Positions 17,564 to 23,375 of a stretch of DNA of 32,900 bases are shown here, in pieces. The notes under the pieces are model-generated. The model saw only the letters and a list, made by a program, of their open reading frames with translations. It had not been told where the DNA came from and did not search any database. Position numbers and translations under genes: made by a program. This stretch comes from Candidatus Melainabacteria bacterium (GTDB lineage Bacteria; Actinomycetota; Actinomycetes; Mycobacteriales; CAJCIY01): contig CAJCIY010000291.1 of the NCBI GenBank assembly GCA_903970495.1, positions 1 to 32,900 on the forward strand, written 5' to 3'. How positions within the stretch are numbered: the stretch's first letter is position 1; every line of letters starts with the position of its first letter.

Positions 17564-18484
17564 GTGTCGATCGCCGTCCAGTCTGCCCCTGCCCGCACGG
17601 GACGCGCTGGAATCCTCCCGACGGCGCGGGGTTATCTGGCTCTCACCAAGCCCCGGATCATCGAGCTGCTGCTCGTCACGACGCTCCCGCCCATGGTGCT
17701 CGCCGAACACGGGTTCCCGTCGTGGTGGCTCGTCGTCGCGACGCTGGTCGGCGGCTCGTTCGCGGCCGGTGCGGCGAACACGATCAACTGCTACTGCGAC
17801 CGCGACATCGACAAGGTCATGCACCGCACGTCGAAGCGGCCGCTCGCGGCGGCGGCGAGCATCGAGCCGGTCAACGCGCTCCGGTTCGGCCTCGCCCTGT
17901 CGGTGGTCGCGACCCTGCTGCTCGGGTTCGCGGTCAACTGGCCGTCGGCGCTGCTGGCCGACGCCGCGATCGCGGTCTACGTCTTCGTCTACACGCTCGG
18001 GCTGAAGCGGCGCACCCCCTCGAACATCGTCATCGGCGGCGCGGCCGGCTGCTTCCCCGCGATCATCGGGTGGTCGGCGGTCACCGGCACCGTCGGCTGG
18101 CCCGCCGCCGTCCTGTTCGCGGTCGTCTTCTTCTGGACGCCGCCGCACTTCTGGGCCCTGGCGCTGCGGTTCAAGGACGACTACGCCTCTGCGGGCGTGC
18201 CGATGCTGCCGGTGGTGGCGCCGCCGCGCACGGTCGCCCGCCGGATCGTCGGCTACTCCTGGGGCATGGTCGCCGTCTCGCTCCTGCTCATCCCGGCTGC
18301 CGGCTGGATCTACGGCGCGGTCGCGCTCGCGGCCGGCGCCTGGTTCCTGAGCGAGGCGTACGCCCTGCGCCGGCGGGTGCGGGCCGGCACCGACCCGAAG
18401 CCGATGCGGCTGTTCCACTACTCGATCAGCTATCTGACGCTGCTGTTCCTCGCGGTGGCCGTCGCCCCGCTCATCAGCCGCTAG
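17564..18484 (+). CDS. ctaB: Protoheme IX farnesyltransferase (heme O synthase)
   Basis: 306 aa integral membrane prenyltransferase of the UbiA superfamily. It attaches a farnesyl group to heme B, giving heme O, for haem-copper oxidases. The prenyl-diphosphate motif is in [23 protein letters not shown] (NxxxDxxxD type), and the second conserved region is [19 protein letters not shown], then [13 protein letters not shown]. Eight or more hydrophobic segments are visible. The GTG start has no ribosome binding site but a close -10 box. It runs divergently from tkt and converges on ctaA, overlapping that gene's 3' end by 11 nt. Cytochrome oxidase structural genes are not in the window. Confidence 0.97.
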
Positions 18485-19415
18485 GAGCCAGCTCCCCGCG
18501 CCCGACCTGGAGCGGCTCGGTCAGGGACAGCGCCAGCAGCAGGCAGGACGCCCAGAACGCGGTGGCGCCCGCGACGTGCACCTCGATCAGCCAGCCGGGC
18601 AGGCCCGTCGCGTACTGCAGGAAGCCCACCGCAGCCTGCGCGATGAGCAGGCCCAGCACCCAGGACGCCCGGCGGCGGACGTCCGCCGGGGCGCCGGCGA
18701 CGCGCAGCAGCACCACCAGCACGACCACACCGCCCGCGAGCAGCAGGACCAGGTCGCTGTGCAGCTGCGTGATGTCGCGGCGGTCGAAGGGCAGGCGGTT
18801 GTCGACGCGGCTGCCGGCCCACGGTCCGGTGCCGGTGACGAGCGTGCCGACCACGATGACGGCCCCCGCTCCCGCGACCAGCGCGCGGCTGAGCCACGTC
18901 ACCTCGGGGCGTACGCGAGTCACCACCGCGCCCGCCGGCCGGCCCAGCCGGTGGTGGATGACCAGGGCGTCCCAGAGGAGCCCGAGCGCGAGCAGCAGGT
19001 GGACGGCGACCAGCAGCGGGTTGAGCCGGGTCAGCACGGTGAGGCCGCCGAGGACGGCCTCGGCGACGTAGCCGCCGAACAGCGCGCCGACCAGCCCGTA
19101 GCAGTCGCTCCGGCGGACCCGCAGGACCAGCCAGGCGAGGACGACGACGCCGGCCAGGAAGACGCCCGCGGACAGCACGCGGTTCCCGAACTCGATCAGG
19201 CCGTGGAAGGTCAGACCGCTGTGCAGCGAGTCGGCGGTGCACGTCGGCCACGTCGGGCAGCCCAGGCCGGAGCCGGTGAGGCGTACGGCTGCCCCGGTGA
19301 CGACGACCAGCCCGAGGATCCAGCAGACCGCGCCGGCCATCCGGCGGGCGGTCCGCGGGTCGGCCGGCGGCCGGAGCCGGAGCGCCCGGGTCGGTGTCGT
19401 GGTCGGTGCGCTCAC
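18474..19415 (-). CDS. ctaA: Heme A synthase (CtaA/COX15)
   Basis: 313 aa membrane protein. It oxidises heme O to heme A for cytochrome c oxidase. The N-terminal half has the conserved cysteine pair in GCPTWPTC (Cys53, Cys59), His71 and Glu75 in [11 protein letters not shown]; later histidines in [21 protein letters not shown] and [12 protein letters not shown] are probable heme ligands. The position equivalent to the second residue of the EXXH pair of the Bacillus enzyme is Asn78, which I believe is usual in actinobacteria. Eight hydrophobic segments fit the family. The GTG start at 19415 overlaps the stop of a 12-codon upstream ORF (GTGA), so translation may be coupled to it. Confidence 0.95.
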
Positions 19416-19514: not shown

Positions 19515-20879
19515 CTAGTGAGAGATGTGGGCCGCGCGCGTCTCGCCGGCCGCAGCGCGCGTGACCAGCAACGACGTGGTCGTCAGCGGGCCGATGACCT
19601 GGTGCCACCCGGTCCAGATGTGGGCACCCGGCAGCAGGATGTCTTGCTCCTGCACACCGCCGATCACCGCCGACACCGTGACCGTGCCGTCGGTCGTCCG
19701 GGTCACGCTGGGCTGGGTCGGGACGCGCGCCGCGCCGAACGGTGTGGTCCAGCTCCACGTGGCGGTCCCTGCCGTCCAGGTGCCGTACTGCAGGATGCCG
19801 TTCGCGGACTCGACGACGAAGTCGGCGGTCCCGGGTCCGTTGGCGACCGCCGGGTCACCGGCGATAGATGGTGGCGGGGTCACCGGGCGGAGCCAGCCGC
19901 TCCAGGTCGTCCCGATGATCGTCGCGTGCCAGAGCACGCCGGTGCCATCGGCGGTCGTGCTGCCGAGCTGCCGCCCGACGACGTCGATGCGTCCGGCGCT
20001 GCCGCTCGCGTCGATGCCGTACACGGTGCCCGAGCTCGTCAGTGTCCGCGCGCTCCAGGCGCTGCCGCTCCAGCTGAGCTCGATCAGTGCGCCGTCCTGG
20101 CCGGTGCCGAGGATGACGAGCTGGCCGTCGCTCGGGCTGGCGATGGCCGGGGCCGTCCGCAAGATCGGGATGCGGAGCGCTGCCGTGAGGTCCTCGGTCT
20201 CGAGGGCTGCGGTGGGAGACGTGCGCCAGCTGTGCACGATGTGGCCGGCGGCGTCGAGGCTGACCTCGTCGACGCGAGTGCCGCCGAAGGATGCCATGCG
20301 CGGGACGTCGGCGACCGCGTCCTTGTCCGCGTACGGCGTGTAGCTCGCCCAGTAGCCGTCGAGGTCCTGGTCGGTCGAGACCGATGCGTCGGTGCCGGTG
20401 TGCGCCTCGGAGATCATGTCGAAGTAGCGGTGGCGGCCGGCGTCGTCGGCCGACCAGCCCAGGAAGAGCACGACGTGCTGCTCGCTGGCGCTCTGCACGC
20501 CGAGCAGGTCGCCGCGCTGCAGCGCCGCGACCGACGGCAGCCGGGCGTCGTAGGGCGACGCGCTCGAGACGAAGTCTCCGGTCACCGCCGAGGTCGGCAG
20601 GTCCCACGCCATCGACAGGAACCCGGAGCAGTCCTGCCGGTACGAGTGTCCGGTGCCCGTCCGCGGCGCCGAGGCCGGGTAGTAGGCGGACTGGCTGTAG
20701 GGGACCGGCTCCGTCGTCCAGGACAGCGCCCGCTCGACGATCTCGGTGCGGCTGATCGAACTGCCGGTGTCGACGGTGCCCACCGTGGCGTGCGCCGGAG
20801 CGGCGCCGGTGACGGCCAGACCGACCCCCACGACGCTCGCGGCCACGAGGCCGACGAGGGTGCGGCGGAGCGGGTTCAC
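19515..20879 (-). CDS. Secreted NlpC/P60-like protein with C-terminal propeller-like region
   Basis: 454 aa from a GTG. A Sec signal peptide is clear: MNPLRR, a hydrophobic core, and AHA cleavage after residue 31. Residues about 40-190 resemble an NlpC/P60 cysteine peptidase/amidase: RQDCSGFLSMAW with candidate catalytic Cys84, then ALQRGDLLG and EQHVVLFLGW with candidate His135. The third catalytic residue is not obvious. Residues about 210-450 are rich in Trp, Gly, Ser and Thr, with repeating blocks such as DGALIELSWSGSAWSA and TGVLWHATIIGTTWSGW. This pattern suggests a lectin-like or tectonin-like beta-propeller that might bind cell-wall glycan. It lies between ctaA and an ABC exporter, all on the minus strand. 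NlpC/P60 proteins cleave peptidoglycan stem peptides, but related proteins have other activities, so the substrate is unknown. Confidence 0.75.
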   Translation of the reverse strand: MNPLRRTLVGLVAASVVGVGLAVTGAAPAHATVGTVDTGSSISRTEIVERALSWTTEPVPYSQSAYYPASAPRTGTGHSYRQDCSGFLSMAWDLPTSAVTGDFVSSASPYDARLPSVAALQRGDLLGVQSASEQHVVLFLGWSADDAGRHRYFDMISEAHTGTDASVSTDQDLDGYWASYTPYADKDAVADVPRMASFGGTRVDEVSLDAAGHIVHSWRTSPTAALETEDLTAALRIPILRTAPAIASPSDGQLVILGTGQDGALIELSWSGSAWSARTLTSSGTVYGIDASGSAGRIDVVGRQLGSTTADGTGVLWHATIIGTTWSGWLRPVTPPPSIAGDPAVANGPGTADFVVESANGILQYGTWTAGTATWSWTTPFGAARVPTQPSVTRTTDGTVTVSAVIGGVQEQDILLPGAHIWTGWHQVIGPLTTTSLLVTRAAAGETRAAHISH

Positions 20880-20965: not shown

Positions 20966-21703
20966 TCAGGCCTGCCAGCGGAAGCTGCGGGCGGCCAGCG
21001 CGATGCCCGCCACCGCCCAGACCGCCAGGACCAGCACGTCGTGGCCCGGCAGCGAACCCTGCCCCAGCGAGGCGCGCAGGCCGTGCGAGAGGGCGGCGGC
21101 GGGAAGCTGCTGGGCGATCGACCGGACGACGTGGGGGAGCGCCGTCAGCGGGAACACGATGCCGCCGAGGAGCAGCAAGACGAGGTAGACGCCGTTGGCG
21201 GCGGCGAGGGTCCCCTCGGCCCGGAGCGTCCCGGCCATCAGCAGCCCGAGCCCGCTGAACGCGGCCGTCCCGAGGACGAGCAGCAGCAGCGCCGGGGCCG
21301 GGTTGCCGTGCGGGTGCCAGCCCAGGACGTACCCCAGCCCCACGAGCAGCGCGGCCTGCACGACCTCGACCGCGACGACCCCCAGCGTCTTGGCGGTCAG
21401 CAGCACGGGCCGGGTCAGCGGCGTCGTCCCCAGCCGGGCGAGGACACCGTAGGACCGCTCGAAACCGGTGGCGATCGCCTGGCCGGTGAACGCCGTCGAC
21501 ATGACCGCCAGCGCCAGGACTCCCGGCACCAGGAACTGCACCCCCGCACCGTCGACCTTCACGGCCGAGAAGAACGCGAGCAGGACCAGCGGGATGACCA
21601 GCGTGAGCAGCAGCGACTCGCCGCGGCGGAGCGAGAGCCGGAGCTCCATGGCCGTCTGCCGGCCGAGGATGGTGAGCGCCGGAGCCGGCGCGTTGCCGCT
21701 CAT
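20966..21703 (-). CDS. ABC-2 type exporter permease
   Basis: 245 aa membrane protein with about six hydrophobic segments (LLLTLVIPLVLLAFFSAV, VLALAVMSTAFTGQAIATGF, VVAVEVVQAALLVGLGYVL and three later). It has the ABC-2 family layout of DrrB-like drug or lipid exporters, including ERSYGVLARLGTTPLTR after the second segment. The ATG at 21703 overlaps the ATPase stop (ATGA), so the pair is translationally coupled. In other actinobacteria an ABC-2 pair lies between ctaA and sufR. The substrate cannot be told; the adjacent acetyltransferase may be a hint. Confidence 0.9.
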   Translation of the reverse strand: MSGNAPAPALTILGRQTAMELRLSLRRGESLLLTLVIPLVLLAFFSAVKVDGAGVQFLVPGVLALAVMSTAFTGQAIATGFERSYGVLARLGTTPLTRPVLLTAKTLGVVAVEVVQAALLVGLGYVLGWHPHGNPAPALLLLVLGTAAFSGLGLLMAGTLRAEGTLAAANGVYLVLLLLGGIVFPLTALPHVVRSIAQQLPAAALSHGLRASLGQGSLPGHDVLVLAVWAVAGIALAARSFRWQA

Positions 21704-22593
21704 GCGCGCAGGTCCCGTCCGGTGAGCTCGAGGAACACGTCCTCGAGGTCGCGCCCGACCTGCAGGTCGTCGGGCATCGCGCCCTGCGCGGCGGCCCAGG
21801 CCGTCACGTCGGCGACCAGGGCCGGGGAGACGGTCGCCGCGGTCACGACGTACCGGCCGGGCTCGGGCTCGCTGACCCGGGCGCCGGCGACGGCGAGCCG
21901 GCCGGTGTCCAGGCCCGGGGTCGACCGGAAGCGGACCGAGCCGGCGCCGGCGGTGAGCTCGGCCACGGTCCCGGCGGCGCGTACGCGGCCGTGGTCGACC
22001 ACGACCACGTGGTCGGCGAGCTCGGTCGCCTCGCCCATGTCGTGGGTCGTCAGCAGGACGCACGCGCCCTCGGCGCGCAGGTCGCGGACCAGCTGCCAGG
22101 TCTCGGCGCGGGCCTGGACGTCGAGACCGGCCGTGGGCTCGTCCAGGAAGACCACCTCGGGCCGGCCGACGACCGCCATCGCGAGCGACAGCCGCTGCCG
22201 CTGGCCGCCCGAGAGCCGGCGGAAGGAGGTCCGGGCCACCTCCGTCAGTCCCAGCCGGTCGAGCAGGGCCGCGGGGTCGAGCGGGTCGGCGAAGTACGAC
22301 GCGACCAGCCGCAGCATCTCCGCGCAGCGCGCCCCGGGGTAGCCGCCGGGCTGCTGCGGCATCACCCCCACCCGGTGCCGCAGCGCACGGCTGCCGGGGC
22401 GCAGGCCGAGGACGGCGACCTCGCCGCCGTCGGCGGTCCGCAGCCCCTCGCAGATCTCGACGGTGCTGGTCTTGCCGGCGCCGTTCGGGCCGAGGACGGC
22501 GGTGACCGCGCCGGCCGCGGCGTCGAGGTCGAGCCCGTCGACGGCGCGGAGCGACCCGTACGCCTTCACCAGCCCGCGCACCCGGACGGTCAC
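21700..22593 (-). CDS. ABC exporter ATPase, DrrA/CcmA-like
   Basis: 297 aa from GTG at 22593. It powers the ABC-2 permease encoded directly downstream. Walker A is GPNGAGKTS, the Q-loop region VGVMPQQPGGYPG, the signature RLSGGQRQRLSLAMAV, Walker B VVFLDEPTAGLDV and the H-loop LTTHDMGEA. After the ABC core comes a C-terminal domain ending in LEDVFLELTGRDLRA, the typical end of DrrA-type drug-exporter ATPases. The start overlaps the acetyltransferase stop (GTGA) and its stop overlaps the permease start, making a tight three-gene unit. Confidence 0.95.
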   Translation of the reverse strand: MTVRVRGLVKAYGSLRAVDGLDLDAAAGAVTAVLGPNGAGKTSTVEICEGLRTADGGEVAVLGLRPGSRALRHRVGVMPQQPGGYPGARCAEMLRLVASYFADPLDPAALLDRLGLTEVARTSFRRLSGGQRQRLSLAMAVVGRPEVVFLDEPTAGLDVQARAETWQLVRDLRAEGACVLLTTHDMGEATELADHVVVVDHGRVRAAGTVAELTAGAGSVRFRSTPGLDTGRLAVAGARVSEPEPGRYVVTAATVSPALVADVTAWAAAQGAMPDDLQVGRDLEDVFLELTGRDLRA

Positions 22594-23375
22594 GGGTGCT
22601 CCCGCTGCAACCAGTCGGCGGCGAAGGCCGCTGCGCCCTCGGCGGGCAGCAGCCGCGCGGTCGCCCCGGCGACGGTGCCGACGGTGACGGCCCCGGTGGC
22701 CTCGTACGCGGCCCCCAGCCGGTCGAAGTCGGCCGCATCGAAGTCGAGGTCGGTCCAGGTGACCCAGCGACGATCGCCGCCGGTGGCGAGGGCGGCACCG
22801 TGCATGACGGTCTTCGCCGTGCCCGCCCGCTGCTCGCCTACGTGGAAGACCGAGCAGGACGACCAGCCCGCGCCGAGCAGCAGCACCGACCCGCGGGCGG
22901 CGGCGACGCGGCCGAGCGGGCTGGCCTCGCCGAAGCCCGGCGCGAGCCGGTGGGCGGCGGTCAGCTCCGCCGCGCGGTCGCCGACGGCCGCGAACGACAG
23001 CTGCGGGTGGTCGCTGCGCTGCGCACCGGGCCACGTGCGGACGAGCTCGGCGACGGCACCCATGTGCTGCGACGGCGAGGACCGCGGGTGGTAGCCGGGC
23101 AGCTCCGCACGGATGAGCGGCCACTCCTCGGGAGGGGCCGGCGGGTTCGACCAGCTGGCCGGATCGCTGTTGCCGGGGGTGTGCGTGGGGACCAGCAGGG
23201 TGCCGTGCCGCCCGACGACGTCGAGCAGCGCCTGCACCACCGCGACCGGTCCGCCGAGCACCCGGCCGAGCGCGCGGAGCGAGGAGTGGACGCAGACGAC
23301 GTTGCCCCAGCCGAGGCCCAGTGCGGTCAGGTCGGCGGCGATGCTCGTACGCGTCGCGAGCGGCCGGTCGGTCAC
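22590..23375 (-). CDS. AAC(3)-family (aminoglycoside 3-N-acetyltransferase-like) acetyltransferase
   Basis: 261 aa, the length of AAC(3) enzymes. The family uses acetyl-CoA to acetylate amino groups, classically the 3-amino group of aminoglycosides, though members such as FrbF act on other substrates. Diagnostic motifs are VHSSLRALGRVLGG near the N-terminus, TLLVPTHTPGNSDPASW, the WPGAQRSDHPQLSFAAVG block with its conserved histidine, ASPLGRV, VLLLGAGWSSCSVFHVGEQRAG with His and Glu, and a tail involved in substrate binding. The GTG start follows GGGAGG (minus strand 23389-23384) with 8 nt spacing. It is first in an operon with an ABC-2 exporter and divergent from sufR (61 nt apart). Resistance is plausible but unproven. 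Confidence 0.9.
   Translation of the reverse strand: MTDRPLATRTSIAADLTALGLGWGNVVCVHSSLRALGRVLGGPVAVVQALLDVVGRHGTLLVPTHTPGNSDPASWSNPPAPPEEWPLIRAELPGYHPRSSPSQHMGAVAELVRTWPGAQRSDHPQLSFAAVGDRAAELTAAHRLAPGFGEASPLGRVAAARGSVLLLGAGWSSCSVFHVGEQRAGTAKTVMHGAALATGGDRRWVTWTDLDFDAADFDRLGAAYEATGAVTVGTVAGATARLLPAEGAAAFAADWLQREHP

Follow-up and report, generated by a model that had tools for sequence, protein, structure and literature searches.

Among the described systems closest to the protein analyzed here are the NlpC/P60 enzymes of peptidase family C40 and the propeller lectins of the PLL type. A passage of PMC3573020 states that the third catalytic position of the superfamily permits Gln, Asn, His, Glu or Asp. 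For the related lysin Pal, an excerpt of PMC8586454 reports that alteration of the third residue (His111Ala) left 36% of the activity, compared with 4% for alteration of the main histidine. In Streptomyces lividans, a table in PMC6833217 gives a secreted NLPC/P60 endopeptidase and, separately, an amidase with Tachylectin 2. Searches of openly licensed papers yielded no description of the enzyme-propeller fusion that is the subject of this work, of its family or of its third residue.

The fusion is encoded on the minus strand of the window, by which we mean the whole stretch of 32,900 nucleotides that was analyzed. Its product, a "hypothetical protein", becomes a testable wall hydrolase: it is probably a secreted peptidoglycan hydrolase carrying a lectin propeller of the glycan-binding type. 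Computed here were the fold of the enzyme half, the conservation of its Cys and His, the propeller kinship of the C-terminal half, the swapping of modules among relatives and the presence of the enzyme domain on phage contigs. The features of the locus are as follows.

19515..20879, minus strand: whole gene, GTG start, 454 amino acids, probable secreted NlpC/P60 enzyme with lectin-like propeller (open reading frame, translation, third-position G+C of 0.94)
20787..20879, minus strand: signal-peptide-like N-terminus, residues 1-31 (translation judged by eye; cleavage guessed after AHA)
20310..20762, minus strand: predicted NlpC/P60 papain-like catalytic domain, residues 40-190 (AF2, VIA-align, profile match to E. 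coli Spr)
20628..20630, minus strand: codon of Cys84, presumed nucleophile, in DCSG (invariant in alignment A5, 78 sequences)
20475..20477, minus strand: codon of His135, presumed base, in HVVLF (invariant in A5, 78 sequences)
20406..20411, minus strand: codons of Ser157-Glu158, the canonical third-residue site and its neighbor (column count, 96 sequences)
19518..20315, minus strand: likely lectin-like propeller region, C-terminal, residues 189-454 (hhalign profile match over residues 205-404; weak Foldseek)
18474..19415, minus strand: ctaA (COX15-CtaA), downstream neighbor, not part of the system (Pfam COX15-CtaA, 2.4e-17)
20966..21736, minus strand: ABC-2 permease, upstream neighbor, not part of the system (Pfam ABC2_membrane, 8.2e-20)

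The G+C content at the three codon positions of the minus-strand frame is 0.64/0.59/0.94, the pattern of a true gene. An overlapping plus-strand frame of 779 amino acids gives the mirror pattern (0.94/0.58/0.70), which argues that the minus-strand frame is the gene and the longer one its shadow. The N-terminus has the look of the signal peptide proposed in the earlier note, with RR, a hydrophobic run and AHA before residue 32 as judged by eye. A scan for promoters and terminators found none. The host genome (2.6 Mb in 350 contigs, an 87% complete assembly) holds one copy of the protein.

Structure prediction with AF2 used the mature protein and 47 relatives of its enzyme half (48 sequences, alignment A2; L073, L082 and L090 were omitted, as their start is too short). 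Residues 40-190 are well predicted, with block means mostly of 84-95, and the remainder of the mature protein poorly. In VIA-align the predicted domain superposes on NlpC/P60 enzymes with an rmsd of 2.7-3.6 over 112-124 residues: the Z-score is 12.3 for both 3h41 and SagA (6b8c), 12.0 for Cg1735, 9.9-11.3 for RipA and 10.3-10.8 for Spr/MepS. The model thus contains the papain-like core that the earlier note had anticipated, with an NlpC/P60 fold at Z 12.3 and with Cys84 and His135 predicted to lie where this fold places them, rather than far apart. A Foldseek search with the whole model gave no NlpC/P60 match among the first 50, which were led by the second half of the protein. Sequence profiles agree with the fold. 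The A1 profile of 16 sequences, compared with solved NlpC/P60 enzymes, matches E. coli Spr at 6.8e-6, MepS at 1.1e-5 and CwlO at 4.5e-4; the search pattern, not their result, excluded L002, L008, L011, L015 and L017 from A1, and DCSG and the His are present in each of them. Against Pfam NLPC_P60 the protein scores 15.6 bits over residues 79-141 (18.4 for the domain alone), below the cut-off of 23, and no NCBIfam model matches it at cut-off. The low Pfam score reflects sensitivity and not another fold, since the relative L142 reaches 23.4 bits with the same model.

Cys84 and His135, the pair singled out in the earlier note, do not vary in any of the 78 sequences aligned in A5, and neither do 17 other residues. 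In the model, Cys84 (model residue 53) would open helix 53-60 and His135 (model residue 104) would lie in strand 103-111; this strand is joined by a hairpin to strand 121-126, after which Glu158 comes directly. This hairpin between His135 and Glu158 is three residues longer than in most relatives. The third catalytic residue had been described as not obvious, and so it proved, the canonical site being Ser157, followed by Glu158. Counted over 96 sequences, the classical third position holds Glu in 69, Ser in 12, His in 7, Gln in 5, Ala in 2 and Tyr in 1, the last from a misread row; the residue after it is Gln in 42, Glu in 41, Leu in 5, Phe in 4, Ser in 3 and Met in 1. The count includes the window protein, and near-identical rows such as L004 and L045, which represent a single locus, were kept. 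The column was assigned by counting from the His, with manual offsets for the window protein, L005 and L037; L038, which by eye is E-E, was read one position off. The Ser157-Glu158 pair is common to 9 of the 96 sequences, the window protein included, and to L002.

A Ser at the canonical site, together with scores below the family cut-offs, would suit a catalytically dead or weak domain kept within a lectin-like binding protein. We regard this as very improbable: Cys84, His135 and the DCSG, LxxGD and HVVLF motifs are all intact, the Ser recurs in 12 of the 96 sequences including the window's own, and the activity reported for Pal His111Ala in the excerpt of PMC8586454 suggests that a related lysin depends only in part on its third residue. 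An active enzyme is the likelier reading, because the third position is varied in the superfamily, because Pal keeps 36% of its activity without its third residue, and because of E444 in RipA, where PDB titles record mutation of C383, H432 and E444 and suggest Glu as the third residue there too. A group of relatives (L067, L088, L095 and L158, the last by eye) has Ser-Phe or Ala-Phe at the site and thus no acidic or amide residue; it is possibly an inactive or altered subgroup.

The bond that an active enzyme would cut can be read in more than one way. The motif on the His side, E-Q or E-E, is nearer to CHAP-type triads than to the classical Cys-His-His. Four of the 16 family members touch Amidase_5 and three touch CHAP, with weak E-values, and the model superposes on Tse1 and CHAP as well (Z 8-9). 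From these signs one could argue for an amidase or peptidase acting on something else (N-acetylmuramoyl-L-alanine amide, polyglutamate or a protein linked to the wall) in place of a D,L-endopeptidase. This is unlikely, since D,L-endopeptidases and enzymes closely akin to them make up most of the best superpositions and profile matches.

The enzyme domain also occurs on eight viral contigs. A terminase gene adjoins it in L145, a portal protein lies upstream in L146, and in L142 and L144 a hydrophobic frame of 77 amino acids with no family match follows directly 3'. L147 (3507-5801) has an amidase-type endolysin, a small open reading frame and then the NlpC/P60 domain with PG_binding_1. The presence of the domain amid phage and lysis genes supports wall peptidoglycan as the substrate. 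A phage origin of the window gene itself was considered and rejected: the C-terminal half is without a viral relative, and the whole protein has one weak match to a phage record, over 24% of its length.

Among 394 genomes of the class, the A1 profile matches 89 at 1e-5. Of these, 54 score at least 78 bits and constitute the family of the window protein, and the remainder, at 40 bits or less, are ordinary NlpC/P60 enzymes. The domain is therefore found in roughly every seventh genome of the class (54/394), and some members, the window's included, are missed at the Pfam cut-off. A pattern search of genome contigs found at least 574 related stretches, the best 80 of which are nearly all actinobacterial (one is a metagenome-assembled genome titled Labilithrix); a scan of genome contigs with the whole 454-residue protein found no relative. 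In 78 proteins (77 relatives and the window protein) Pfam recognizes NLPC_P60 in 48 at E 0.001, PG_binding_1 in 31, Tachylectin in 9, FG-GAP in 5, and DUF346 and Tectonin in 1 each. Several Streptomyces plasmid proteins of the family have a RICIN module. On a Streptomyces globosus plasmid (L018, 487-3438) the order is reversed, with a tachylectin-like stretch (by eye) ahead of the enzyme and a tachylectin-related gene adjoining; in view of this reversal, such fusions probably have more than one origin. Tandem arrays, each with four copies of the domain within about 3.5 kb, stand at G358:C12:88769-92373 and at G310:C15:25361-28716. The window gene is an ordinary, though much altered and diverged, member of a widespread and poorly annotated family found in actinobacteria and some of their phages, and the interest lies more in that family than in the gene itself. 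The family offers a set of lectin-like heads already assembled, from which the targeting of lysins could be studied.

These exchangeable heads on one catalytic domain, the sparse and patchy presence (54 of 394 genomes) and the homologous domain on phage contigs, where killing through the wall is the job, could also describe a bacteriolysin, an enzyme set free to lyse competitors or prey by cutting their walls, with the propeller choosing the surface glycan of the victim. Against this, 31 of the 78 proteins have a simple peptidoglycan-binding domain as their head, as in enzymes that act on their own wall; apart from an ordinary-looking signal peptide the protein shows no dedicated signal for secretion, and the named neighbors include no recognizable immunity gene. 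We judge the bacteriolysin reading rather unlikely, and the wall and sugar-binding modules of the relatives (PG_binding_1, Tachylectin, RICIN and others) were counted for a secreted wall hydrolase.

The second half of the protein is likely a PLL-like propeller, on the strength of its sequence kinship to C-termini within the family. Aligned by hhalign to a PLL/DUF346-like profile built from the C-termini of five relatives (L014, L158, L160, L081 and L023), it matches over residues 205-404 with a probability of 90 and a score of 49.1, compared with maxima of 20.9 in 100 shuffles and 23.5 in 25 others. Other groups of C-termini score 25.6 (FG-GAP), 19.8 (L012 alone) and 18.7 (tectonin-like), the rest falling within the shuffle range. 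When 67 other C-termini of the family were placed on the PLL profile, L012, which is propeller-like too by eye, scored 48.9, L093 33.1, L067 28.9, L022 27.8 and the rest 26.2 or less. The match rests much on two relatives, because the score falls to 26.0 or 27.8 when L014 or L158 is withdrawn; both values are above all 100 shuffles, and withdrawal of any other row leaves at least 38.5. Taken singly, the PLL-type rows L081 and L023 are each at about chance level. Foldseek gives the same indication weakly: 21 of its first 25 matches are lectins of the PLL, PHL, AAL, AFL, FleA or RSL type, at E 0.03 or worse.

Viewed by itself the C-terminal half is hard to place. Folded alone it has a pLDDT of 34, with strands in about six groups; five or six repeat groups can be discerned. 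It matches no Pfam family, DUF346 included; its best PDB match, a fucose lectin at E 0.15, is not significant; and in 296 genomes of the class it finds one 20-bit match besides its own genome. Self-alignment of the single sequence gives no significant internal repeats, as 9 of 100 shuffles score as high, and two alignments of this half, A3 and A4, were discarded as MAFFT had misplaced the repeats. The half had been called Trp/Ser-rich and repeated. The Trp enrichment holds (11 of 266 residues, compared with 4 of 157 in the enzyme half) and Thr is abundant (36 of 266); the repeats do not reach significance in the single sequence, and a Ser-rich repeat is rejected, Ser amounting to 23 of 266 residues here and 22 of 157 in the enzyme half. 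The propeller-like character suggested at the same time finds support in the profile of related proteins (49.1, shuffles at most 20.9), and reaches significance only there.

A mode of action for the secreted wall hydrolase can be proposed. The protein would be exported, and its NlpC/P60 domain would attack an amide bond of the wall peptides, Cys84 serving as the nucleophile and His135 as the base; the weak orienting part played by the third residue may fall to Glu158 or to Ser157, which occupies the canonical site. The bond cut would be that between D-glutamate and the diamino acid, the default of NlpC/P60 enzymes. The diverged PLL/DUF346-like propeller would hold the active enzyme on a glycan of the wall or envelope, and the target may be the cell's own wall rather than that of another cell. 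A broader scheme is also conceivable, which we consider doubtful: an actinobacterial NlpC/P60 domain, shared with the lysis genes of actinophages, would have been fitted with exchangeable heads (PLL/DUF346, tachylectin, tectonin, ricin, FG-GAP and peptidoglycan-binding), so that cells keep or swap secreted lysins for different surface glycans, and the window protein would be a fast-diverging member with its own target and a shifted third site at Ser157-Glu158.

The gene does stand between ctaA and an ABC exporter, as the earlier note had observed: a permease and an ABC ATPase lie upstream and ctaA downstream, as identified by Pfam. The gene order sufB/D, ABC ATPase, permease, ctaA, ctaB, tkt recurs widely. 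The relatives sampled, 60 in all, belong to other families of the host's taxonomic order. Of 40 ctaA regions (from 40 of 61 genomes, several of the stretches cut by contig ends), 23 have the ATPase and permease on the upstream side of ctaA. Sixteen of these 23 leave no more than about 205 bases between permease and ctaA, and in the other 7 there is 0.9-4 kb of other sequence. The seven gaps differ in gene content by eye (an MFS protein with TetR, an FtsX-like protein and others); filtered for likely genes, some have them and L183 has none. A tblastn search found no relative of the window enzyme in any of the 40 stretches, some of them truncated as noted. Because the junction is direct in 16 of 23 and filled with differing content in 7, none with a relative of the window gene, the gene represents the insertion of a single gene, specific to its lineage, at a permissive junction, and the surrounding genes give no clue to its function. 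The place is unusual, as had been remarked, and carries no functional message. A functional tie to ctaA or to the ABC exporter was rejected on the permissive junction and on the lack of an enzyme relative in the 40 ctaA regions. Directly upstream of the ABC ATPase, at 22590-23375 on the minus strand, is an aminoglycoside 3-N-acetyltransferase-like gene (Pfam Antibiotic_NAT, 1.3e-79; NCBIfam AAC_3, 198 vs 270 bits). AAC(3)-like genes are found upstream of ctaA in 3 of the 40 regions of relatives (L172, L173 and L176).

With the NlpC/P60 enzymes of family C40 (SagA, RipA, Spr/MepS) the protein shares the predicted fold over the whole domain, the Cys in DCSG and the His on the next strand. Identity in the top structural alignments is just 12-27%, and the protein departs from SagA, RipA and Spr in having Ser-Glu at the third-residue site and a likely propeller in place of a coiled coil, SH3 or LysM. 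The lysis enzymes of the actinophage-like contigs (L142-L147) have the same enzyme domain, several beside small membrane-like open reading frames, but end in PG_binding_1 or short tails, with no propeller seen. The seven-bladed PLL/PHL lectins and the fucose lectins of the AAL/RSL type are linked to the C-terminal half by profile kinship through the DUF346/PLL-like C-termini and by the Foldseek matches; the half differs from PLL in its five to six or so repeat groups compared with seven blades, in weak Foldseek values and in giving no closed superposition. A further comparison is with the actinobacterial family itself (Streptomyces, Amycolatopsis, Kutzneria, Lentzea, Micromonospora). The window protein stands apart from it in a propeller diverged beyond detection from a single sequence, and resembles it in 27-44% identity over the enzyme half, in the same motifs, in a secreted-looking build with an accessory module often following the enzyme, and in the PLL/DUF346 propellers that L014, L158 and L081 carry.
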